Below, in pieces: positions 48,378 through 61,488 of a stretch of DNA of 64,000 nt. The DNA lies in the NCBI RefSeq assembly GCF_017795745.1, contig NZ_CP059067.1:1426001-1490000 (forward strand). Direction: 5' to 3'. The translations under genes and the position numbers were made by a program. Within the stretch, counting starts at the first letter, position 1. Each line of letters opens with the position of its first letter. The notes beneath the pieces are model-generated. The model had not been told where the DNA came from and ran no database searches. It saw only the letters and a list, made by a program, of their open reading frames with translations. Origin of the DNA: Rhizobacter sp. AJA081-3 (GTDB lineage Bacteria > Pseudomonadota > Gammaproteobacteria > Burkholderiales > Burkholderiaceae_C).

Positions 48378-49565
48378 TCAGACGGGGTCGAGCGTGGTCA
48401 TCGGCGTCCAGTACCAGCTGCCGCCCTGGCCCAGGCCGAGCTGGCCAAAGCGATTGTCGCCCCAGCAGTAGATTCGGTTGTCGGTGCCGATCGCACAGCT
48501 GTGCTGGAAACCGCTGGCGATGGCGCGGTAGCTGCGCCCGCCGGCCACCGGCTGCGGCCCGCGGAACACGTCCGACGCAGCGTTGCCGAGCTGGCCCCAG
48601 TAGCCATTGCCCCAGCACGAAGCCAGGCCGTTCGGGTCGAGCGCGCAAGCATGGTTCCAACCCGTGGCAACGCCGGCGAGCGCCATCGCCACGCCGACCG
48701 TCTGCGGAACGTAGGTTGCCGAGAAGCTCTGCCCGCTGCCGAGCTGGCCGTATTGATTCAGGCCCGTACATTGCACTTGGCCATTGATCTGGTCGGCGCA
48801 GGTGAAGTCGCCCTGAGTCTGCAGCCGGGCGACTGCGGTGCCCAGCGACGAGTTGAACGCGAACGGCACGGCGCCAGACCAGGCGTTCCAGTCCACGCCC
48901 GACTGGCCGTACTGGTTCTGGCCCCAGCAATAGGCGCCTCGATAGCTGTTGACGACATACAGAGCGCAGGCATGCGCGCGCCCGACACTGACCGACTGAA
49001 AGCTGGCATTCGTGCTCAACTGCAGTGGCAGCGCCGCGCTGCCGGCAATGGAGCCCCAGCAGAACAGGCCCTCGGGCGAGGTGCCGCATGTCGAGGTTTC
49101 GCCGGCGCTGATCGTGTGGAACTGGTGGCCGCCGGAGACCGGGAACGGCGTCGGCCTCACGCTGTACGGATCTGGCGCATTGCCGAGCTGACCGTGGCTG
49201 TCGCTGCCCCAGCACCAGGCGGCACCCGCGGAATCGATCGCGCAGGAATGGGCAGCACCCGCCTCGACCTGGCGGCCGGTCATCACGTATCTGGGCCGGG
49301 CGACGCAGGCCACCCCGCCGCACAGCTGGGTGCTCTCGAAGCCGATCTGGCCCTGGTCGTTGCGGCCCCAGCAGTAGGTCTTGCCGTTGAGCTTGCGCGC
49401 GCAAGTGTGGTTCAGCCCTGCGCTGATCTCGACGAAGGACTCGGGATCGGGCAGCGGGAGCGGCCTGATGACGATGGGCCGGATGATCTGTGCCCCGGCG
49501 GCGGCACAAGCCAGCGCAAGCAGCGCGCCCAGCAACCAGCGGGCAGGACGGATGGTGATGGTCAT
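48378..49565 (-). CDS. Secreted RCC1-repeat beta-propeller protein
   Basis: A 395-residue exported protein with a Sec signal peptide (ALLALACAAAGAQ). At least six RCC1-type repeats follow, each with the pattern G..H.CA(L/I)....(Y/S)CWG.N..GQLG; nearly every repeat has a cysteine pair, so disulfides are likely to hold the blades in the oxidising periplasm or outside the cell. The ATG at 49565 follows a GGGAGAG site; a longer frame lacks signal-peptide character. Function unknown. It is convergent with the GGT gene and about 10 bases apart. Confidence 0.85.
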   Translation of the reverse strand: MTITIRPARWLLGALLALACAAAGAQIIRPIVIRPLPLPDPESFVEISAGLNHTCARKLNGKTYCWGRNDQGQIGFESTQLCGGVACVARPRYVMTGRQVEAGAAHSCAIDSAGAAWCWGSDSHGQLGNAPDPYSVRPTPFPVSGGHQFHTISAGETSTCGTSPEGLFCWGSIAGSAALPLQLSTNASFQSVSVGRAHACALYVVNSYRGAYCWGQNQYGQSGVDWNAWSGAVPFAFNSSLGTAVARLQTQGDFTCADQINGQVQCTGLNQYGQLGSGQSFSATYVPQTVGVAMALAGVATGWNHACALDPNGLASCWGNGYWGQLGNAASDVFRGPQPVAGGRSYRAIASGFQHSCAIGTDNRIYCWGDNRFGQLGLGQGGSWYWTPMTTLDPV

Positions 49566-49740
49566 GGAGCTCTCCCTCGGGTGCGGCATCCGGGACGGGC
49601 TTTGCCACCGGGGATGCCGCGACCGGGGGCGCCGCGTGAGCGAGAGGTCGGTCACGCGCTGTCAATCTAGAGGGCGCGACGTTAGGAAGCCGTTATGCAC
49701 TGCGCCGGCGTATAGACTGGCGAACATCGCGACGGAACAG

Positions 49741-52135: not shown

Positions 52136-53287
52136 TCACATGAAGCGCGAGGCCAGCTCCTTCATGATCTCGTTGGTGCCGCCGTAGATGCGCTGGACGC
52201 GCGCATCGGTGTAGAGCTCGGCGATCGGGTACTCGCTCATGTAGCCGTAGCCGCCGAACAGCTGCAGGCACTCATCCATCACCTTGCCCTGCTGCTCGGT
52301 GACCCAGTACTTGAGCAGCGCCGCGCGGTCCACGCCGAGCTCGCCCTTCAGGTGCGAGACCATCGCTGCGTCGACCATCGCGCGCGCCGCCAGCACCGTG
52401 GCCTGCACCTCGGCGAGCTTGAAGCGCGTGTTCTGGAAGCTCCAGATCGGTTTGCCGAAGGCCTGGCGTTCCTTGGTGTAGGCCACCGTCTCGGCCAGCG
52501 CGCGCTCCATCGCGCCGATGCCGCCCAGCGCCACGATCAGCCGCTCCTGCGGCAGCTGCTGCATCAGCTGGATGAAGCCCTGGCCCTCGGCACCGCCGAG
52601 CAGGTTGGCCGCCGGCACGCGAACCTCGTCGAAGAAAAGCTCGGCAGTGTCCTGCGACTTCAGGCCGATCTTGTCGAGCAGCCGGCCGCGGCGGAAGCCT
52701 GGGGACTGCTCGGTCTCCACCACCAGCAGCGACATCCCCTTGGCCCCCTCGCCGCCGGTCTTGCACGCCACGATGATCAGGTTCGCGTTGCCGCCGTTGG
52801 TGATGAAGGTCTTCTGGCCGCTGAGAACGTAGTGATCACCGTCGCGCCGCGCGCTCGTGCGGATCGCCTGCAGGTCGGAGCCGGTGCCCGGCTCGGTCAT
52901 CGCGATGGCGGTGATGAACTCGCCGGTGGCCATCTTCGGCAGCCAGCGCTGCTTCTGTGCCTCGCTGCCGTAGTGCAGCAGGTAGGGGGCGACGATGCCC
53001 GAATGCAGCCCGCCGCCGAAGCCGCCGAGGTTGGCGCGGGCCGCCTCGAGAATGATCACCGCGTCGTGGCCGAAATCGCCACCGCCGCCTCCGTAGGCCT
53101 CGGGCATGGCGGCGCACAGCAGCCCTTGCGCGCCGGCCTCGCGCCACACCTCGGGTCCCAGGCGGCCGGCCGCCCGCCATTCGGCCGCGCGCGGCACCCA
53201 GCGCTCGGTCAGGAAGCGGCGCACCGCGTCTTCCAGTGCGCGGTGCTCGTCGTTCATCCAGGCCGAGGGGAAGTTGGCAATCGCCAT
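52136..53287 (-). CDS. Acyl-CoA dehydrogenase
   Basis: A 383-residue FAD enzyme that makes the 2,3-double bond of an acyl-CoA. Signature motifs MTEPGTGSDLQAI and ERQAFGKPI are present; the catalytic base is Glu373 in GGTNEI, the medium/short-chain position. LFGGYGYMSEYP is standard. It is the third gene of the SCP2-MerR-ACAD minus-strand operon and starts 11 bases after the regulator. It may act on long or branched acyl-CoA; the substrate is unknown. Confidence 0.95.
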   Translation of the reverse strand: MAIANFPSAWMNDEHRALEDAVRRFLTERWVPRAAEWRAAGRLGPEVWREAGAQGLLCAAMPEAYGGGGGDFGHDAVIILEAARANLGGFGGGLHSGIVAPYLLHYGSEAQKQRWLPKMATGEFITAIAMTEPGTGSDLQAIRTSARRDGDHYVLSGQKTFITNGGNANLIIVACKTGGEGAKGMSLLVVETEQSPGFRRGRLLDKIGLKSQDTAELFFDEVRVPAANLLGGAEGQGFIQLMQQLPQERLIVALGGIGAMERALAETVAYTKERQAFGKPIWSFQNTRFKLAEVQATVLAARAMVDAAMVSHLKGELGVDRAALLKYWVTEQQGKVMDECLQLFGGYGYMSEYPIAELYTDARVQRIYGGTNEIMKELASRFM

Positions 53288-53298
53288 GGTCGGGTCCT

Positions 53299-53754
53299 TC
53301 AGGCGGCGTTCTTGGCGGGGCGCTTGCGCGACTCGAGCTGTGCACGGCAGCTCTGGTTGATGACGCGCAGCTCGGCGAGCGTGGCGTCGATGTGGGCGCG
53401 CTTCTGCTCCAGCTCGGCGATCGCGGTGTCGGTGCGCGTGATCACGTAGTTGAGCTGCTGCGCGCGGCCCTCGCCATGGTCGCCGTACAAGTCGAGGTAA
53501 TGCTTGATCTCGGCCAGCGGCGAACCGATCGCCTTGGCGCGCAGGATGAGTGCCAGCCGCGCCCGGTCGCGACGCGTGTAGACCCGCGTGCCGTTCACAC
53601 GCCGCGGCGCAAGCAGGCCCTTGTCTTCGTAGAAGCGCAGCGCGCGCAGCGTCACGCCGAAATCGCGGCACAGCTCGGCGATGCCGAACAGATCGCCCGT
53701 GCCGTCGTCGCGGTGCGAGGCGACGAAGGCGCGTGCCGAGTCGTCGCGGGCCAT
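53299..53754 (-). CDS. MerR-family transcriptional regulator (LiuR-like)
   Basis: A 151-residue regulator: N-terminal winged helix-turn-helix (FGIAELCRDFGVTLRALRFYEDKGLL, reported as residues 22-48) with RRVNGTRVYTRRDRARL, then a coiled-coil dimer helix. It has a single cysteine in the tail and lacks the metal-binding cysteines of metal sensors. MerR proteins of this kind (LiuR) control branched-chain and fatty acyl-CoA catabolism in proteobacteria. It sits between two genes of the cluster and overlaps SCP2 by one base, so it probably regulates both arms through the palindrome at 54146. Confidence 0.9.
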   Translation of the reverse strand: MARDDSARAFVASHRDDGTGDLFGIAELCRDFGVTLRALRFYEDKGLLAPRRVNGTRVYTRRDRARLALILRAKAIGSPLAEIKHYLDLYGDHGEGRAQQLNYVITRTDTAIAELEQKRAHIDATLAELRVINQSCRAQLESRKRPAKNAA

Positions 53755-54050
53755 CAGACCACGCGCTGCATGCGCAGGGCCACGCTCATGTCGCCCTGCA
53801 CCTTGAGCTTGCCGGTCATGAAGCCGGTGGCCGGCTCCAGGTCGCCGCGCAGCATGGCCGCCAGGTTGTCGAGCGTGATGCCGACGGTGCAGTCCGCGTC
53901 GGCGCCGCGGTTGTCCACCGTGTTCGGCACGGCCTTGCCGTCCACGTAGATGGTGCCGGCCTCGCCGCAGTCGAACTTGAGCGTGGCGTTCAGGCCGCTG
54001 TCGTCTCCGACCTTGGTGCGGATGGCGGTGGTGCAGTCGTCGAGGGTCAT
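53754..54050 (-). CDS. SCP2 sterol-binding domain protein
   Basis: A 98-residue single SCP2 domain: AIRTKVGDDSGLNATLKFDC at the start and DNLAAMLRGDLEPATGFMTGKLKVQGD in the central helices. SCP2 domains bind acyl-CoA or lipid in a hydrophobic tunnel, so it may carry a hydrophobic acyl substrate for the neighbouring enzymes. It is the first gene of the minus-strand arm. A candidate -10 (TAGGAT, 54092-54087) lies about 37 bases before the start. Confidence 0.92.
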   Translation of the reverse strand: MTLDDCTTAIRTKVGDDSGLNATLKFDCGEAGTIYVDGKAVPNTVDNRGADADCTVGITLDNLAAMLRGDLEPATGFMTGKLKVQGDMSVALRMQRVV

Positions 54051-54145
54051 GGGGCAGGGTGGGAGGTCAGTGTGCAGATGGCCGGCATCCTAGGGTCCGC
54101 CGCTGCCGAAGGGTACCGTGTAATCACCAATACGCCAGCGGGATG

Positions 54146-54160
54146 ACGTTAACGTAAGCT
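54146..54160 (+). promoter_or_regulatory. Perfect palindrome ACGTTAACGT and -10 of the carboxylase arm
   Basis: ACGTTAACGT (54146-54155) is a perfect 10-base palindrome in the 118-base region between the divergent arms. TAAGCT (54155-54160) next to it is a possible -10 for the SDR gene, whose ATG follows eight bases later. MerR activators bind between -35 and -10, the position seen here. ACGT-NN-ACGT half sites are, from memory, also seen in LiuR-type operators. Confidence 0.5.
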
Positions 54161-54168
54161 GCGCGGCC

Positions 54169-55074
54169 ATGACGGACCCCACCGAATCGAAGGCCGGCGA
54201 GCGCCGGCGCTACGCCAGCGTGCTGCGCCCGGGCCTGTTCGCCGGTCAATTGATCTGGGTCACGGGCGGCGGCAGCGGCATCGGCCGCTGCGTCGCGCAC
54301 GAGCTGGCCTCTCTGGGCGCCACCGTGGTGCTCAGCGGCCGAACCGCCGAGAAGCTGGAGCGCGTCGCCGCCGAGATCGCCGAGGACGGGGGCCGCGCTG
54401 TCACGCGCGCCTTCGACATCCGCGACGAGGACGCCGTGAAGTCGCATGTCGCCGAGGTGGTCGCCGCCCACGGCGCGGTGCACGGCCTGGTCAACAACGC
54501 CGGCGGGCAGTTCCCGGCGCCACTGATGGCGATCAGCAAGCGCGGCTTTGAGGCGGTGGTGGCGAACAACCTGACCGGCGGCTTCCTGATGATGCGCGAG
54601 CTGTTCCTGCAGTCGATGCAGGCGCACGGCGGCGCCATCGTCAACATGACGGCCGACTTCCGCAATGGCATGCCCGGCATGGGCCACAGCGGCGCGGCGC
54701 GCGCAGGCATGGCCAACCTGACGCAGACGGCCGCCTTCGAGTGGGCGCACGCCGGCGTGCGCGTCAACGCGGTGGCGCCGGGCTGGATCGCCTCCAGCGG
54801 CATGGACAGCTACGGTGGCCTGACGAAGACGCTCATCCCCAAGCTGAAGAACCACGTGCCGCTGCGCCGCCTGGGTGCGGAGGCCGAGGTCAGCGCGGCG
54901 ATCTGCTTCCTGCTCAGCCCGGGCGCGGCCTTCATCACCGGCGTCACGCTGGCCATCGACGGCGGCGCGCCGCTGGGCAGCCCGCTGTTCCCGAGCCTGG
55001 ACCACGACAAGTCGCAGCCCTTCGGCGGCTTTCATCGCGCCACCACGCCCGACGTGCTAAAGGGCGGTGCCTGA
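54169..55074 (+). CDS. SDR-family enoyl-CoA reductase-like protein (PECR-type)
   Basis: A 301-residue short-chain dehydrogenase/reductase. The NADPH loop TGGGSGIG (residues 33-40) and NNAGG are intact. The usual Tyr-x-x-x-Lys is replaced: residues 173-180 read HSGAARAG, as in peroxisomal trans-2-enoyl-CoA reductase (PECR), and the C-terminus (FITG...IDGG, then LDHDKSQP) also resembles PECR. Such enzymes act on enoyl-CoA double bonds instead of keto groups. It occupies the place of atuB in the acyclic terpene operon. No Shine-Dalgarno is clear. Its stop overlaps the next ATG by one base. Confidence 0.88.
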   Translation: MTDPTESKAGERRRYASVLRPGLFAGQLIWVTGGGSGIGRCVAHELASLGATVVLSGRTAEKLERVAAEIAEDGGRAVTRAFDIRDEDAVKSHVAEVVAAHGAVHGLVNNAGGQFPAPLMAISKRGFEAVVANNLTGGFLMMRELFLQSMQAHGGAIVNMTADFRNGMPGMGHSGAARAGMANLTQTAAFEWAHAGVRVNAVAPGWIASSGMDSYGGLTKTLIPKLKNHVPLRRLGAEAEVSAAICFLLSPGAAFITGVTLAIDGGAPLGSPLFPSLDHDKSQPFGGFHRATTPDVLKGGA

Positions 55075-56684
55075 TGCCGGTCATCACCTCGAAGCTCGAC
55101 CCGGCGAGCGCTGCCTTCGCCGCCAACACGCAGCGCATGGCCGAGCGCCTGGCCGAGGTGCAGCGGCTCGAAGGCCTGGTGATCGCCGAGAGCGAATCCA
55201 AGCGCTCGCGTTTCGAGCAGCGCGGCCAGCTGCTGCCGCGCGAGCGTGTCGCGCGCCTGCTCGACCGCGGCTCGGGCTTCCTCGAGCTCAGCCGGCTGGC
55301 GGGCCTGAACATGCACGACGACGACGGCAAGAAGGCCGTGCTCGGCGGCGGCAGCATCGTGGGCATCGGCACGGTGGCCGGCAAGCGTGTGCTGATCTCG
55401 GCCAGCGACAGCGGCGTGAAGGGCGGCACCGTCGCGCCCATGGGCCTGAAGAAGGCGCTGCGTGCGCAGGAGATCGCGCGCGAGAACAAGCTGCCGCTGG
55501 TCTACCTGGTGGAGTCGGGCGGCGCCAACCTGATGTACCAGGCGGAGATCTTCGTCGACGGCGGGCGCAGCTTCGCCAACCAGGCGCGCCTGTCGGCCGC
55601 CGGCATCCCGCAGATCGCGGTGGTGCACGGCTCGTCCACCGCCGGCGGTGCCTACCTGCCCGGGCTGTCGGACTACGTGGTGCTGGTGCGCGGGCGCAGC
55701 AGCATCTACCTGGCCGGCCCGCCGCTGGTGAAGGCGGCCATCGGCGAGGACGCGACCGACGAGGAGCTCGGCGGCGCGCAGACGCATGCCGAGGTGACGG
55801 GTCTCGGCGAGTACCTGTGCGAGAACGACGCCCATGCGATCGCGCTCACCCGCGAACTGCTCGACAAGCTGAACTGGGATGCGGCCGGCCCGGCGCGCCC
55901 CTTCATCGAGCCCTTGTTCGACGAACAGGAGCTGCTGGGCGTCGTGCCCGCCGACGAGCGCGAGCCCTACGACGTGCGAGAGGTGATCGCGCGGCTGGTC
56001 GACGGCAGCGACCTTCTCGAGTTCAAGCCCGGCTACGGCAGCGAGACGGTCTGCGGCCATGCGCGACTGATGGGCCACGCCGTGGCGATCATCGGCAACA
56101 ACGGCCCGATCCAGCCCGAGGGCTCGACCAAGGCGGCGCAGTTCATGCAGCTGGCCGACCAGAGCGGCACGGCGCTGCTCTTCCTGCAGAACACCACCGG
56201 GTACATGGTCGGCTCGGCCGCCGAGCGTGGTGGCGCGATCAAGCACGGCTCGAAGATGATCCAGGCGGTGGCCAATGCACGGGTGCCGAAGTTCACCGTC
56301 GTGCTCGGCGGCAGCTACGGTGCGGGCAACTACGGCATGTGCGGTCGCGGCTTCGACCCGCGCTTCATCTTCGCCTGGCCCTCGGCGCGCACCGCGGTGA
56401 TGGGCGGCGCGCAGGCGGCCAAGGTGATGGACATCGTCAACCGCAGCAAACTCGAGCGCGCCGGCCAGGCCGCCAACGAGGACGCGCTGAAGGCCATGAG
56501 CGACGCGCTGCGCCTGCGCCTGGACAAGGAGTCCACCGCGCTGTTCGGCACCGCGCGGCTGTGGGACGACGGCATCGTCGACCCGCGCGACACGCGCCGC
56601 CTGCTCGGCCTGTGCCTGGCGATGGCCGCCGAGGCCGAAACCCGCACGCTGCGCCCCAACACCTTCGGCGCCGCCCGCTTCTGA
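55074..56684 (+). CDS. Acyl-CoA carboxylase, carboxyltransferase (beta) subunit
   Basis: A 536-residue biotin-dependent carboxyltransferase of the methylcrotonyl-/geranyl-CoA carboxylase group. N- and C-terminal crotonase-like halves carry SASDSGVKGGTVAPMGLKK and NNGPIQPEGSTKAAQFMQL; the acyl/biotin sites have GSYGAGNYGMCGR and MGGAQAAKVM. At the site where MCC has NITGFMVG this protein has NTTGYMVG, so the acyl pocket may differ. It pairs with the alpha subunit encoded at 58641. The ATG overlaps the SDR stop (TGATG). Confidence 0.93.
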   Translation: MPVITSKLDPASAAFAANTQRMAERLAEVQRLEGLVIAESESKRSRFEQRGQLLPRERVARLLDRGSGFLELSRLAGLNMHDDDGKKAVLGGGSIVGIGTVAGKRVLISASDSGVKGGTVAPMGLKKALRAQEIARENKLPLVYLVESGGANLMYQAEIFVDGGRSFANQARLSAAGIPQIAVVHGSSTAGGAYLPGLSDYVVLVRGRSSIYLAGPPLVKAAIGEDATDEELGGAQTHAEVTGLGEYLCENDAHAIALTRELLDKLNWDAAGPARPFIEPLFDEQELLGVVPADEREPYDVREVIARLVDGSDLLEFKPGYGSETVCGHARLMGHAVAIIGNNGPIQPEGSTKAAQFMQLADQSGTALLFLQNTTGYMVGSAAERGGAIKHGSKMIQAVANARVPKFTVVLGGSYGAGNYGMCGRGFDPRFIFAWPSARTAVMGGAQAAKVMDIVNRSKLERAGQAANEDALKAMSDALRLRLDKESTALFGTARLWDDGIVDPRDTRRLLGLCLAMAAEAETRTLRPNTFGAARF

Positions 56685-56698
56685 ACGAGGAACCCGCG

Positions 56699-57853
56699 AT
56701 GAAATTCACCCCCGAGCACGAGCAGATCGCCGACACGGTGCGCAAGTTCGTCGCCAAGGAGCTCAACCCGCACGTGCCCGAATGGGAGGCGGCGCAGGAG
56801 TTCCCCAGCCACGAGGTGTTCAAGAAGCTCGGCGACCTGGGCCTGCTGGGCATCAAGTACCCGACCGAGTACGGCGGCATGGGCCTGGACTTCAGCTACT
56901 CGATGGTGATGGCAGAAGCGCTGGGCGACTGCACCTGCGGCGGCGTGCCCATGGCCATCGGCGTGCAGACCGACATGGCCACGCCGGCGCTGGCCCGCTT
57001 CGGGTCCGACGAACTCCGCCGCGAGTACCTCGCGCCCACCATCGCCGGCGACTACGTGGCCTGCCTGGGCGTCAGCGAAGCCGGCGGCGGCTCCGACGTG
57101 GCGGCCGCCAAGACCAGCGCGCGCAAGGAGGGCAGCGACTACGTCATCAACGGCTCGAAGATGTGGATCACCAATGGCCTGAAGGCCGACTGGTGCTGCC
57201 TGCTGGCCAACACCTCCGAGGGCTCGCCGCACCGCAACAAGAGCCTGATCGTCGTGCCCATGGATGCGCCGGGCATCACCAAGCAGAAGATCCGCAAGAT
57301 CGGCATGGACTCGTCGGACACCGCGCAGCTGTTCTTCGACAACGTGCGCGTGCCGCAGCGCAACCTGATCGGGCAGGAAGGCATGGGCTTCACCTTCCAG
57401 ATGCTGCAGTTCCAGGAAGAGCGCCTGTGGGGCGCTGCGAGTTCGCTGCGGGGTCTCGACCGCATCATCGACAGCACCATCGAGTACACGCGGCAGCGCC
57501 AGGCCTTCGGCAAGAGCATCCTCGACAACCAGGTGGTGCACTTCCGCCTGGCCGAGCTGCGCACCGAGGTCGAGGCGCTGCGCGCGCTGACCTACCGCGC
57601 GGTGGAGATGTACGTGAGCGGCAAGGACGTCACCAAGCTCGCCTCGATGGCCAAGCTCAAGTGCGGGCGACTGTCGCGCGAAGTGGCCGATGCGTGCCTG
57701 CAGTACTGGGGCGGCATGGGCTTCACCTGGGACAACCCGGTGTCGCAGGCCTACCGCGACAGCCGCCTCGTGTCGATCGGCGGCGGCGCCGACGAGGTGA
57801 TGCTGGGCATCATCTGCAAGCTCGAAGGCACCTTGCCGAAGGTGGCCAAGTGA
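56699..57853 (+). CDS. Acyl-CoA dehydrogenase (citronellyl-CoA dehydrogenase-like)
   Basis: A 384-residue acyl-CoA dehydrogenase, clearly different from the one at 52136. Motifs GVSEAGGGSDVAAAKTSA and RQAFGKSI are present; the base is Glu366 in GGGADEV at the C-terminal position. Phrases such as HEVFKKLGDLGLLGIKYP recall the AtuD citronellyl-CoA dehydrogenases. Start has GAGGA upstream. It lies 14 bases after the beta subunit and overlaps the hydratase by four bases (GTGA). Confidence 0.92.
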   Translation: MKFTPEHEQIADTVRKFVAKELNPHVPEWEAAQEFPSHEVFKKLGDLGLLGIKYPTEYGGMGLDFSYSMVMAEALGDCTCGGVPMAIGVQTDMATPALARFGSDELRREYLAPTIAGDYVACLGVSEAGGGSDVAAAKTSARKEGSDYVINGSKMWITNGLKADWCCLLANTSEGSPHRNKSLIVVPMDAPGITKQKIRKIGMDSSDTAQLFFDNVRVPQRNLIGQEGMGFTFQMLQFQEERLWGAASSLRGLDRIIDSTIEYTRQRQAFGKSILDNQVVHFRLAELRTEVEALRALTYRAVEMYVSGKDVTKLASMAKLKCGRLSREVADACLQYWGGMGFTWDNPVSQAYRDSRLVSIGGGADEVMLGIICKLEGTLPKVAK

Positions 57854-58644
57854 GCGAGCCGGTCGTTCTCACGCGCCGGGCCGGCGCGGTGCTGCACCTG
57901 ACGCTGAACCGGCCGCAGGCGCGCAACGCGATGTCGATGGCCATGGTGCTGGCGCTGCGCGAGGCGCTGGCCGAGGCGGAAGCCGACGACACGGTACGCG
58001 TGGTGGTGCTGCGCGGCGCGGGCGGGCACTTCAGCGCCGGCGCCGACATCACCGAGATGGCCACCGCGCGCATGAGGCTGGCCGCCGACCCGAACGCGAT
58101 CGCGGCGGTCAACGCCTCCTTCGGCGAACTCTGCGCCGATTACGCACGCACCGGCCTGGCGGTGGTGGTGGTGGTCGAAGGCACGGCCATGGGCGGCGGT
58201 TTCGGCCTGGCCTGCGTGGCCGACGTCACGATCGCCGGCGAGAGCGCCGTGTTCCGATTGCCAGAGGCTTCGCTCGGGGTCGTGCCGGCGCAGATCGCGC
58301 CCTACCTCGTCGAGCGGCTGGGCACCTCGCAGGCGCGGCGGCTGGCGGTGACGGGCGGGCGCATCGACGCGAAGGCCGCCTTGGCGCTCGGCCTGGTGCA
58401 CGAACTGCATGCCGATGCCGAACTCGACACCGCGTTGCAGCGCGTGCTGGGCGAGATCCTGCAGAACGCGCCACAGGCGGTGGCGGCCACCAAGGCGCTG
58501 ATCGCCAAGGCGCGGCTGCACAGCCCGGCCTCGCTGGTTCAGGAGGCCGCCGAGGTCTTCTCTCGTGCCGCGCTGTCGGCCGAGGGGCACCGAAGGCAGA
58601 CCGCCTTCCTGCAAAAGCGCAAGGCGAAGTGGATGCCGCAGTGA
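57850..58644 (+). CDS. Enoyl-CoA hydratase/isomerase family protein
   Basis: A 264-residue crotonase-fold enzyme. The oxyanion motif SAGADITEM (residues 62-70) and Glu139 (PEASLGVVPA) are present, but the first catalytic glutamate of classical hydratases (GGGCE) is replaced: residues 115-119 read GGGFG. Methylglutaconyl-type hydratases also deviate at this position, so it may hydrate a 3-alkylglutaconyl-CoA, the carboxylated product of the neighbouring enzyme, instead of a simple enoyl-CoA. GTG start overlaps the dehydrogenase stop, and its own stop overlaps the next GTG. Confidence 0.9.
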   Translation: MSEPVVLTRRAGAVLHLTLNRPQARNAMSMAMVLALREALAEAEADDTVRVVVLRGAGGHFSAGADITEMATARMRLAADPNAIAAVNASFGELCADYARTGLAVVVVVEGTAMGGGFGLACVADVTIAGESAVFRLPEASLGVVPAQIAPYLVERLGTSQARRLAVTGGRIDAKAALALGLVHELHADAELDTALQRVLGEILQNAPQAVAATKALIAKARLHSPASLVQEAAEVFSRAALSAEGHRRQTAFLQKRKAKWMPQ

Positions 58645-60605
58645 GCTTCGAGAAGATCCTCATCGCCAACAGAGGCGAGATCGCCTGCCGCGTGATCCGC
58701 ACGGCGCGTGCGCTCGGCTATCGCACGGTGGCTGTCTACAGCGACGCCGATGCCGGCGCGCCGCATGTGTTGCAGGCCGACGAGGCGGTGCGCATCGGCC
58801 CGGCGCCGGCGGCCGACTCCTACCTGAACGTCGCCGCGCTGCTCGACGCGGCGCGCCGCAGCGGTGCCGATGGCGTGCACCCGGGCTACGGGTTTCTCAG
58901 CGAGAACGCCGCCTTCGCGCAGGCCTGCCTCGATGCGGGGCTGGTGTTCATCGGCCCGCCGCCCGCGGCCATCACCGCGATGGGTGACAAGGCCCTGGCC
59001 AAGCGGCGTTTGCACGATGCCGGCGTGCCCTGTGCGCCGGGTTACCTGGGCCACGCGCAGGACGATGCGACGTTGCACGCCGAGGCCCTGAAGCTGGGCT
59101 TCCCGCTGCTGGTCAAGGCGGTGGCCGGCGGCGGCGGGCGCGGCATGCGCCTGATGCGTTCTGCCGACGAGATCGGCGAGGCACTGGCCGGCGCGCGGCG
59201 CGAGGCGAAGGGCGCCTTCGGCGACGACACGCTGATGCTGGAGCGGCTCGTCGAGCATGGCCGCCACATCGAGATCCAGGTGTTTGCCGATGCGCACGGC
59301 CACGTCATCCACCTTGGCGAGCGCGACTGCAGCGCGCAGCGGCGGCGCCAGAAGGTCATCGAGGAGTCGCCCTCGCCGGTGGTCTCGCCCGAACTGCGCG
59401 CGGCGATGGGCCACGACGCGGTGGCGGCGGCGCGCGCCGTGGGCTACGTGGGCGCAGGCACCGTGGAGTTCATCCTCGACCAGACGGGCCGCCACTACTT
59501 CCTCGAGATGAACACGCGGCTGCAGGTCGAGCACCCGGTCACCGAGATGGTGACGGGGCTGGACCTGGTCGAGTGGCAATTGCGCATCGCCGCCGGCGAG
59601 CCGCTGCCTCTGAATCAGGAACAGGTGGCGATGCAGGGCCATGCCATCGAGGTGCGCCTGTACACCGAAGACCCGTACGCCGGCTTCGCGCCACAGACCG
59701 GTACGGTGATCCACTGGCAACCCGAGGCGGCGCTGCAGCCGGGCGTTCGCATCGACCATGGGCTGGCCGAAGGCAGCGTGATCGGCCCGTACTACGACGC
59801 CATGGTTGCCAAGCTGATCGCGCATGGCCGCGACCGCGCCGACGCGATCCGCCGCCTGCGCGCCGCGCTCGCGGCTGCGCCGCTGCTCGGCCTGCGCCAC
59901 AACGCGCACTTCCTGCGCGAGCTGCTCGACCATGCCGCATTCCGCCGCGGCGAGATGACCACGCAGTTGCTCGACGACTGGCAGCGCGACGGCGTGCCGC
60001 TGATGCAGCGGCCGGTGGCCAGCGATGAAGACTGGTGCCTGGCCGCCGCCGCCTTCGCACTGCGCGAGGGCGCCATGCAGCGGCCGGAGAGCGTGGCGGC
60101 CTGCGACCTGCCGTTGCAGCTGGAAGGCCGGCACCGCACGCCCCGCGTGCGGCCGCGGCGCGACGGCAGCGTGCAGGTCACGCTCGACGGCGTGGCGCAT
60201 GAGCTGCGCTTGCTGGCCAGCGGCGAACGCCAACTGCGTTATGCATGGGACGGTGTCGCGCGCCGCGCCGTGGCGGTCTGGCAGGGTGGGGCGCTGCATC
60301 TGGCACGGGAGGCGCATGTCTTCGTCTTCGACGAGCCTTCGCCGGTGCCGCAGTCCGAACACCACGCCGACGCGGGCCGCGCCCTGGCGCCGGTGGCCGG
60401 CGTCGTTGCCAAGCTGGCCGTCCAGCCGGGCGACAGGGTCGCCGCCGGCCAACCGCTCGTGTGCGTCGAGGCGATGAAGATGGAGATGTGGGTCCCCGCC
60501 GGCGCCGCGGGCCGCGTCGTGCGCGTCGTGGTGCAGGCCGGGCAGCAGGTGGCTTCGGGCGCGCTGCTGGTGGAACTCGAACTGGCGGCCGCGGCCGCCG
60601 AATGA
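58641..60605 (+). CDS. Acyl-CoA carboxylase, biotin carboxylase/biotin carrier (alpha) subunit
   Basis: A 654-residue alpha subunit: biotin carboxylase domain (residues 1-445) with KILIANRGEIACRVIRTAR at the start, GGGGRGMR for ATP and EMNTRLQVEHPVTE; a BT linker region; and a biotin carrier domain ending with EAMKMEM, where Lys613 would carry biotin. It serves the beta subunit at 55074. The GTG at 58641 is preferred because it overlaps the hydratase stop as GTGA. Size and layout match MCC/GCC alpha subunits. Confidence 0.95.
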   Translation: MSFEKILIANRGEIACRVIRTARALGYRTVAVYSDADAGAPHVLQADEAVRIGPAPAADSYLNVAALLDAARRSGADGVHPGYGFLSENAAFAQACLDAGLVFIGPPPAAITAMGDKALAKRRLHDAGVPCAPGYLGHAQDDATLHAEALKLGFPLLVKAVAGGGGRGMRLMRSADEIGEALAGARREAKGAFGDDTLMLERLVEHGRHIEIQVFADAHGHVIHLGERDCSAQRRRQKVIEESPSPVVSPELRAAMGHDAVAAARAVGYVGAGTVEFILDQTGRHYFLEMNTRLQVEHPVTEMVTGLDLVEWQLRIAAGEPLPLNQEQVAMQGHAIEVRLYTEDPYAGFAPQTGTVIHWQPEAALQPGVRIDHGLAEGSVIGPYYDAMVAKLIAHGRDRADAIRRLRAALAAAPLLGLRHNAHFLRELLDHAAFRRGEMTTQLLDDWQRDGVPLMQRPVASDEDWCLAAAAFALREGAMQRPESVAACDLPLQLEGRHRTPRVRPRRDGSVQVTLDGVAHELRLLASGERQLRYAWDGVARRAVAVWQGGALHLAREAHVFVFDEPSPVPQSEHHADAGRALAPVAGVVAKLAVQPGDRVAAGQPLVCVEAMKMEMWVPAGAAGRVVRVVVQAGQQVASGALLVELELAAAAAE

Positions 60606-60615
60606 CGGAGAGCAC

Positions 60616-61488
60616 GTGGACAAGGCCATCCTCACCTGCGCGCTGACCGGCGTGCTGACCAACCCGAAGCAGCATCCTGTGCCGGTCACGCCCGCGCAGA
60701 TGGCCGCCGAGGCGCGCGACGCCTTCAACGCCGGTGCCTCGATCATGCATGTGCACCTGCGCATGCAGGAGGAGGGCCTGGGCCACATGCCGAGCTGGGA
60801 TCCGGACGTGGCCGAGTCGGTGGTGAATGCCATCCGAGCCGCCTGCCCCGGCGTGATCATCAACCTGACCACCGGCGTGATCGGCAAGGACGTCTCCGGG
60901 CCGCTGGAGTGCATCCGCCGCGTCAAGCCCGAGATCGCCGCCTGCAATGCCGGCAGCCTGAACTACCTGAAGATCAAGTCCGACGGGCAATGGGCCTGGC
61001 CGCCGATGGTGTTCGACAACCCGGTGCCCAAGGTGCAGCAGTTCCTCGACGTGATGCAGGAGTATGGCGTACACCCGGAGTTCGAGTGCTTCGACGTGGG
61101 CATCGTGCGCTCGGTCGGCATGTACCTCGAGGCCGGCATGCTCAAGCCGGAGATGGGCACGCCCGAATACAACTTCGTGATGGGCGTGGCCTCGGGCATG
61201 CCCTGCGACGCCGACCTGCTGGCCCTGCTGCCGCGCTGGGTGAAGCCGGGCAGCGTGTGGCAGACCACGCTGATCGGCCGCGGCGAGATCTGGCCGGTGC
61301 ACCAGCGCACCGCCGAGCTCGGCGGCATGCTGCGCACCGGGCTGGAAGACACCTTCTACCTGCCCGGCGACCAGCGTGCCACCGGCAATGGCGTGCTGAT
61401 CGAGGCGCTGGCCGCTTGCGCACAACGTGCCGGCCGCACGGTGGCCAGCCCGGCCGAGGCGAGGCAACTGCTCGGCCTGCGGCACTGA
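60616..61488 (+). CDS. BKACE family enzyme (beta-keto acid cleavage, DUF849)
   Basis: A 290-residue TIM-barrel enzyme of the BKACE family, which takes a beta-keto acid plus acetyl-CoA and gives acetoacetate plus a shorter acyl-CoA. The metal ligands are visible in IMHVHLR (HxH) and in ECFDVGIV, with TTGVIGKD and NAGSLNYLK lining the site. GTG start 11 bases after the alpha subunit. It replaces the hydroxymethylglutaryl-CoA lyase that normally ends leucine/terpene pathways, so it may cleave the pathway's keto acid. Confidence 0.9.
   Translation: MDKAILTCALTGVLTNPKQHPVPVTPAQMAAEARDAFNAGASIMHVHLRMQEEGLGHMPSWDPDVAESVVNAIRAACPGVIINLTTGVIGKDVSGPLECIRRVKPEIAACNAGSLNYLKIKSDGQWAWPPMVFDNPVPKVQQFLDVMQEYGVHPEFECFDVGIVRSVGMYLEAGMLKPEMGTPEYNFVMGVASGMPCDADLLALLPRWVKPGSVWQTTLIGRGEIWPVHQRTAELGGMLRTGLEDTFYLPGDQRATGNGVLIEALAACAQRAGRTVASPAEARQLLGLRH

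Follow-up and report, generated by a model that had tools for sequence, protein, structure and literature searches.

A conserved variant of the Atu gene cluster in Rhizobacter sp. AJA081-3 with a BKACE gene apparently in the place of AtuA

Gene content of the cluster

Rhizobacter sp. AJA081-3, whose genome forms one contig of 5.40 Mb, carries a divergent acyl-CoA carboxylation cluster, which we analysed within a 64-kb window (the whole stretch from position 1,426,001 to 1,490,000 of NZ_CP059067.1). The cluster resembles the acyclic terpene utilization (Atu) system of Pseudomonas (atuRABCDEFGH; described in the available passages of PMC4847356 and PMC4097962) and ends with a gene for a beta-keto acid cleavage enzyme (BKACE). 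Nine open reading frames were confirmed within 52136-61488, at the positions assigned to them in the first-pass annotation (Table 1). The minus arm consists of SCP2, MerR and acyl-CoA dehydrogenase genes, and the plus arm of genes for a short-chain dehydrogenase/reductase (SDR), a carboxyltransferase (CT) beta subunit, an acyl-CoA dehydrogenase (ACAD1), an enoyl-CoA hydratase (ECH), a biotin carboxylase with a biotin carboxyl carrier domain (BC/BCCP), and BKACE. As that annotation had noted, the plus-strand genes are nearly contiguous: SDR and CT beta overlap by 1 base, CT beta and ACAD1 are 14 bases apart, ACAD1 and ECH overlap by 4 bases and ECH and BC by 16, and 10 bases separate BC from BKACE. 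On the minus arm, SCP2 and MerR overlap by 1 base and MerR lies 11 bases from the second dehydrogenase. The frames and their Pfam types also bear out the atu-like order SDR-CT-ACAD-ECH-BC.

The plus arm thus shares with the Atu system its gene order and, as detailed below, the type of its CT beta subunit. The two differ in that the Rhizobacter genome has no AtuA, BKACE follows the alpha subunit and SCP2 is present. The pathway can no longer be called complete, since neither a lyase nor an acyl-CoA ligase is found among the nine genes, none of which typed as the acyl-CoA synthetase AtuH. The BC/BCCP translation contains an AMKM motif. A dehydrogenase sharing 57-72% identity with ACAD1 occurs in 13 of 20 loci that encode a geranyl-CoA carboxylase (GCC) in AtuA-type genomes, and the hydratase scores 155 bits, below the 426-bit cut-off of the gamma-carboxygeranoyl-CoA hydratase model.

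Table 1. Features of the cluster, with positions in the 64-kb window
Feature	Position	Strand	Basis
Second acyl-CoA dehydrogenase (accessory)	52136..53287	-	Pfam Acyl-CoA_dh domains; start taken from translation
MerR-family regulator, probably LiuR-like	53299..53754	-	Pfam MerR_1, MerR-DNA-bind; co-occurs with operator
Stand-alone SCP2 domain protein (lipid/acyl carrier), 98 aa	53754..54050	-	Pfam SCP2, E 2e-15
Predicted MerR operator TGACGTTAACGTAA	54144..54157	+	Within divergent promoter region
SDR dehydrogenase, AtuB position (accessory)	54169..55074	+	Pfam adh_short_C2
Carboxyltransferase beta, GCC (AtuC) type	55074..56684	+	PDB match, Gly162, tree
Acyl-CoA dehydrogenase ACAD1, AtuD (citronellyl-CoA dehydrogenase) position	56699..57853	+	Pfam
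Enoyl-CoA hydratase, AtuE position	57850..58644	+	Pfam ECH_1
Biotin carboxylase and biotin carrier domain, AtuF position	58629..60605	+	Biotin_carb_N, CPSase_L_D2, Biotin_carb_C, Biotin_lipoyl
BKACE, distinct subfamily tied to GCC-type carboxylases	60616..61488	+	Pfam BKACE, E 1e-82

Conservation in close relatives

Recurrence of the gene set, which the first-pass annotation had proposed as a check, was seen in 80 named loci, taken as the best of 207 found (77-98% identity), the nearest being in a Piscinibacter metagenome-assembled genome (MAG) with a 98% identical beta subunit. Rubrivivax gelatinosus (L089) and R. benzoatilyticus (L036) are among the carriers. Because the set recurs in these loci, with varying completeness, it is more than a chance arrangement. 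Gene presence was scored with per-gene identity cut-offs of 45-70%, counting only loci with room on the contig. BC (62/62), BKACE (57/57) and SCP2 (67/70) are nearly constant; MerR (59/67), ACAD1 (66/76) and ECH (60/71) are frequent, and SDR (21/73) and the second dehydrogenase (10/59) occur in a minority. The core of the cluster is therefore the carboxylase, BKACE and SCP2. Among the genes that had been stressed as extra, SCP2 belongs to this core, whereas the second dehydrogenase, like SDR, is accessory.

Ten loci without ACAD1 represent a minimal form. None of them shows a hydratase or MerR gene, although the contig ends before the hydratase position in L079 and before the MerR position in L070, L079 and L094. 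BKACE is present in nine of the ten, and the contig of the tenth (L079) ends in BC; most of these loci keep SCP2 beside the carboxylase and BKACE. Such a form fits general or liu enzymes that may serve desaturation, hydration and lysis, but neither the carboxylation of a large substrate nor the fate of a beta-keto acid. It had also suggested that a methyl ketone is carboxylated and then passed directly to BKACE, an idea that was dropped in view of the dehydrogenase and hydratase counts given above.

One could suppose that BKACE is a bystander in an otherwise ordinary Atu cluster, since neighbouring genes can travel along and the close loci are of recent common ancestry. However, BKACE is present in every locus with room for it while other genes vary, it is retained in the minimal form, and its subfamily accompanies three branches of the carboxylase tree (see below). 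On these grounds the bystander explanation was rejected as very improbable. Separately, one copy of the cluster (L024) lies on a MAG contig labelled Akkermansia muciniphila; its genes match betaproteobacterial ones at 72-84%, and the label is probably a binning error.

Carboxylase type

Judged from its sequence, the carboxylase beta subunit is clearly of the GCC type, as indicated by the PDB score, the pocket residue and the tree. Its best PDB match is the GCC beta subunit of P. aeruginosa (5ikl, 723 bits), against 537 bits for the methylcrotonyl-CoA carboxylase (MCC) entry 3u9r. In the GCC structure, according to the available passages of PMC4673880, Gly162 opens the pocket for geranyl-CoA, whereas Phe191 and an insertion of three residues characterise MCC. 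Gly162 without the insertion is found in the window's CT beta and in all aligned rows of the AtuA and BKACE types, while the beta subunit of the host's own liu operon has the three-residue insertion with Phe. Trees built from chosen sets of 44 and 50 rows support this type; in the former the GCC types split from MCC at a 100/100 branch, and the window's subunit falls on the side of P. aeruginosa GCC. One further tree, from which nine further rows were omitted, drew on 17 of the named loci (of 80). The carboxylase is therefore not of mixed identity, as had been suggested. The same phylogeny, another check proposed at that stage, places the subunit outside the MCC clade and with GCC, and a liu operon is present elsewhere in the genome.

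That separate operon encodes an HMG-CoA lyase (PF00682) and an MCC-type beta subunit; its alpha subunit and hydratase were named from their translations. Since the genome has its own liu operon and the cluster has a GCC-type beta subunit, leucine is not the main role of the cluster. Of the earlier statement that the pathway is not simply one for leucine or citronellol, the leucine part stands; citronellol or geraniol may still be the substrate.

Some other beta subunits depart from both patterns. In L186, L187 and L188 (G031, G283 and G176; genomes of 0.9-1.3 Mb), a CT beta encoded near an AtuA gene lacks the MCC insertion and carries Ser or Thr in place of Gly162, which may represent a third type of pocket. 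The MCC-like beta subunits of L183 and L184 (G314 and G213) have QMA or HMA as the insertion, without Phe, and G213 carries an AtuA gene some 2.4 kb away from this subunit. The host genome also encodes a 598-aa protein of unusual domain order (L013:9899-11695, minus strand), in which a biotin-carrier-like start (AMKM) precedes a carboxyltransferase match.

MerR regulator and operator

The regulator of the Atu pathway, AtuR, is of the TetR type, whereas the window has a MerR gene. Its assignment to the liu type agrees with a palindrome common to the cluster promoter and the host's own liu operon, where it occurs overlapping and doubled upstream of MCC beta. Passages of PMC3223726 present LiuR as a repressor of the MerR family that governs the use of branched-chain amino acids, and passages of PMC5343134 also call it a MerR-family regulator. 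The palindrome TGACGTTAACGTAA occurs once in the 64 kb when up to one mismatch is allowed, with a chance mean of 0.00. With up to two mismatches, 75 of 89 related loci, a set that includes at least four duplicates, have it upstream of the plus arm. MerR and operator occur together in these 75 loci, both are missing in eight, MerR stands alone in six and the operator alone in none (Fisher p 4e-8). Through TGACGTTAACGTCA-like sites the regulator would control the divergent promoter, probably by repressing it, and joint control with liu is likewise suggested by the shared palindrome.

The cluster shares its chemical logic and the palindrome with the liu system, and the MerR gene and the palindrome could point to a second leucine/isovalerate (MCC) cluster. 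This explanation is hardly credible and was ruled out: the beta subunit lies outside the MCC clade and has the GCC pocket, and the MCC-type beta subunit and HMG-CoA lyase are encoded in the separate liu operon. The cluster also differs from liu in having no HMG-CoA lyase gene and in having BKACE.

The BKACE subfamily and its carboxylase partners

The BKACE product matches PF05853 above the curated cut-off and falls below every NCBIfam BKACE cut-off (178 against 382, 168 against 350 and 147 against 430 bits). Like other BKACEs (Kce and the 3-oxoadipate and 3,5-dioxohexanoate enzymes), it is modelled as a TIM-barrel (pLDDT 86.5, pTM 0.88) with BKACE/Kce as the nearest folds; the 50 Foldseek matches listed include, besides BKACE relatives, cis-epoxysuccinate hydrolase, ObcA and further barrels. 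The HxH and ED residues, which we take to be those of the metal site, are invariant across 39 members. At the position that presumably holds the substrate-amine-binding Glu of Kce, this subfamily has an invariant Leu, so that a substrate with an uncharged side chain would be suited. The subfamily differs from the known BKACEs in being only 32-35% identical to the four solved ones, in its NCBIfam scores and in its tie to a carboxylase.

This tie was evident in a family survey, in which the BKACE was found in 42 of 258 genomes, own included. A carboxylase gene lies beside it in all 31 further family loci examined (of 41 others), one of which (L150) starts inside BC; at least four duplicate named loci (L156, L157, L160 and L152 are on the same contigs as L016, L018, L021 and L060). 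Eight of these 31 loci, found with BKACE rather than the carboxylase as query, form a second type, B (L139-L146), whose beta subunits are 53-57% and BKACEs 62-67% identical to those of the window, which represents type A. A TetR-family gene, typed by Pfam in one case, lies upstream in seven of the eight. Among 72,556 plasmid records, BKACE (E <= 1e-50) was found in one, Haematobacter massiliensis pOT1-4, with the gene row carboxyltransferase, biotin carboxylase, two hydratases, dehydrogenase, glutathione S-transferase and BKACE, the last annotated as '3-keto-5-aminohexanoate cleavage protein'. For the B-type and Haematobacter loci, AtuA was looked for in their stretches only. Identity among the BKACEs of the three types is 61-67% for the pairs compared, and one BKACE of each type was scored and fell under every NCBIfam cut-off.

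On the carboxylase tree, the GCC-type enzymes that this BKACE subfamily accompanies thus fall on three branches (A, B and Haematobacter). Grouping A with B was rejected (p-AU, the approximately unbiased test, 4e-65), as were A with Haematobacter (p-AU 2e-8) and B with Haematobacter (p-AU 0.005). The BKACE tree is weakly supported at its base, and the gene may have been gained three times or may be ancestral and lost in the AtuA types. In two alphaproteobacterial plasmids, a glutathione S-transferase gene lies within a GCC-type cluster (L211:13943-14623 and L209:13317-13955).

BKACE and AtuA across genomes

AtuA and BKACE fall into separate Pfam families. A family search of the window's genome revealed no AtuA (PF07287) and exactly one BKACE. 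In a class sample of 369 genomes (GCC cut-off 1e-120, with a score gap between 561 and 535 bits), nine genomes besides the host have a GCC-type carboxylase, and AtuA is present in all nine, against 27/369 overall. In an order sample of 300 genomes there are fifteen such genomes besides the host, all with AtuA (E <= 1e-100), against 79/300 overall; GCC matches were taken here only at E <= 1e-175, so weaker GCC types without AtuA may have escaped. The window's BKACE (E <= 1e-90) occurs in none of these fifteen and, among the 300 genomes, only in its own. Conversely, AtuA-family genes were found in 10/51 genomes with BKACE-type clusters (own included) compared with 24/24 of the AtuA type (Fisher p = 5e-12, kinship ignored). 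Within 20 loci of AtuA-type genomes, no BKACE was detected (E 1e-8, coverage 45%), and AtuA itself lies inside the stretch examined in ten. On plasmids of Sphingobium and Achromobacter, AtuA comes directly after the alpha subunit (BC), the place that BKACE has in the window; at several chromosomal loci it precedes the beta subunit instead. A search with one AtuA member found no solved relative by sequence. By gene content and position, BKACE appears to occupy the place of AtuA in this variant of the Atu pathway.

Proposed pathway

On balance, we lean towards an Atu-pathway variant in which GCC-type carboxylation would be followed by a relay of LiuE and BKACE in place of AtuA. The cluster would strip isoprenoid or other long beta-methyl acyl-CoAs of their beta-methyl branch. 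LiuE, the HMG-CoA lyase of the liu operon (which has the same operator in this genome), would release acetyl-CoA and a free beta-keto acid, R-CO-CH2-COO-. The local BKACE would then exchange these two for acetoacetate and R-CO-CoA, and the latter would enter beta-oxidation. A route from a free beta-keto acid to acyl-CoA and acetoacetate through BKACE has been proposed, with mutant backing, in passages of PMC6365646. For R = methyl the lyase product is already acetoacetate, so leucine needs no BKACE, whereas a larger R does. A LiuE relative of at least 59% identity was found in 45 of the 50 BKACE-type genomes tested for AtuA and LiuE (50 of the 80 close relatives, mostly MAGs; one match, in G691, is partial and another, in G707, is split over two contigs), and at 69-73% identity in all ten minimal-form genomes.

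Several observations weigh against the relay. The chemistry of the cluster, including both cleavage reactions and the substrate, is deduced here from genes. None of the clusters was found to contain a lyase gene: a LiuE query (60% coverage) matched only the host's own liu locus among the pieces searched. Five of the 50 genomes, mostly draft MAGs, fall short of the 59% identity, two having a relative of only about 40% and three none. The palindrome was found in 4 of 11 liu loci (the host's own and three relatives') and not in the seven others, as scored in those of 21 liu pieces (20 and L012) that cover the start of MCC beta. AtuA and BKACE are not strictly exclusive, since 10 of the 50 genomes also have an AtuA-family gene, a share near the order-sample background. 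Finally, the available passages of two papers name different enzymes for the lyase step, LiuE as isohexenylglutaryl-CoA lyase in PMC4097962 and AtuA in PMC4847356, and both give acetate and a beta-ketoacyl-CoA as products, not a free beta-keto acid.

The missing lyase genes and the genomes without a close LiuE would be explained if BKACE were itself the lyase and cleaved 3-hydroxy-3-alkylglutaryl-CoA directly, with LiuE unneeded; a minimal form reduced to the carboxylase, BKACE and mostly SCP2 is also in keeping with this. However, the enzyme shares its HxH and ED residues with known BKACEs, whose substrates, as far as the available passages describe them, are free beta-keto acids. Moreover, BKACE has no significant sequence similarity to the host's own HMG-CoA lyase, and no HMG-CoA lyase is among the 50 fold matches listed of its 404 (E <= 0.001). 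We therefore consider direct cleavage by BKACE unlikely and retain the LiuE-BKACE relay as the best-supported, though inferred, mechanism. The variant itself, an Atu pathway with BKACE where AtuA would stand, is real and conserved. More tentatively, and with somewhat less than an even chance, a lyase-BKACE relay may generalise the leucine pathway to any beta-methyl acyl-CoA; AtuA would then, given its exchangeability with BKACE, have the corresponding role in the classical Atu pathway, and the 'acetate lyase' step as published would have to be revised.

Substrate

Citronellol, geraniol, farnesol, phytol or another compound may be the source of the substrate. Among 111 loci, one acyl-CoA ligase family stands after BKACE in nine of type A and another is found in five of the eight of type B, while many loci have thiolase (17) or FadB-type (15) genes close to the second dehydrogenase. 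Together with the aldehyde dehydrogenase (3/111) and GMC oxidoreductase (4/111) genes near some clusters, these neighbours suggest that the compound is a long-chain or bulky alcohol or acid. The natural substrate of the same pathway could also be non-terpenoid, such as a methyl-branched fatty acid, a sterol side chain or some other beta-methyl acid; BKACE would then act downstream of the hydratase, or its substrate would be an unrelated keto acid. Gly162 indicates a large pocket and no particular substrate, and the SCP2 carrier with the FadD11-like ligase of some relatives would suit long or bulky chains in general. Yet the order of the genes and the type of carboxylase are those of the geranyl/citronellyl pathway, and the aldehyde dehydrogenase and GMC genes suggest a primary alcohol as precursor, and we regard a non-terpenoid substrate as improbable. 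A link of phytol or phytenic acid to GCC was not found among the literature matches listed, and phytol stays a guess. PMC4204640, followed as a lead, proved unrelated in its available passages.

Significance and neighbouring observations

The cleavage step of bacterial isoprenoid degradation is assigned to either LiuE or AtuA in the passages cited above, and the replacement of AtuA in one lineage by a well-understood enzyme family makes the question testable. The association also suggests a function for this BKACE subfamily, and the row CT-BC-BKACE may serve as a marker for isoprenoid-acid degradation in Burkholderiales. Among the literature matches listed, from a search that subscription papers mostly lay outside, no publication joins BKACE, DUF849 or KCE with GCC or Atu. 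Elsewhere in the window, a frame at 48378-49655 on the minus strand encodes a secreted-looking protein whose translation reads as many CWG-type repeats resembling RCC1 repeats.

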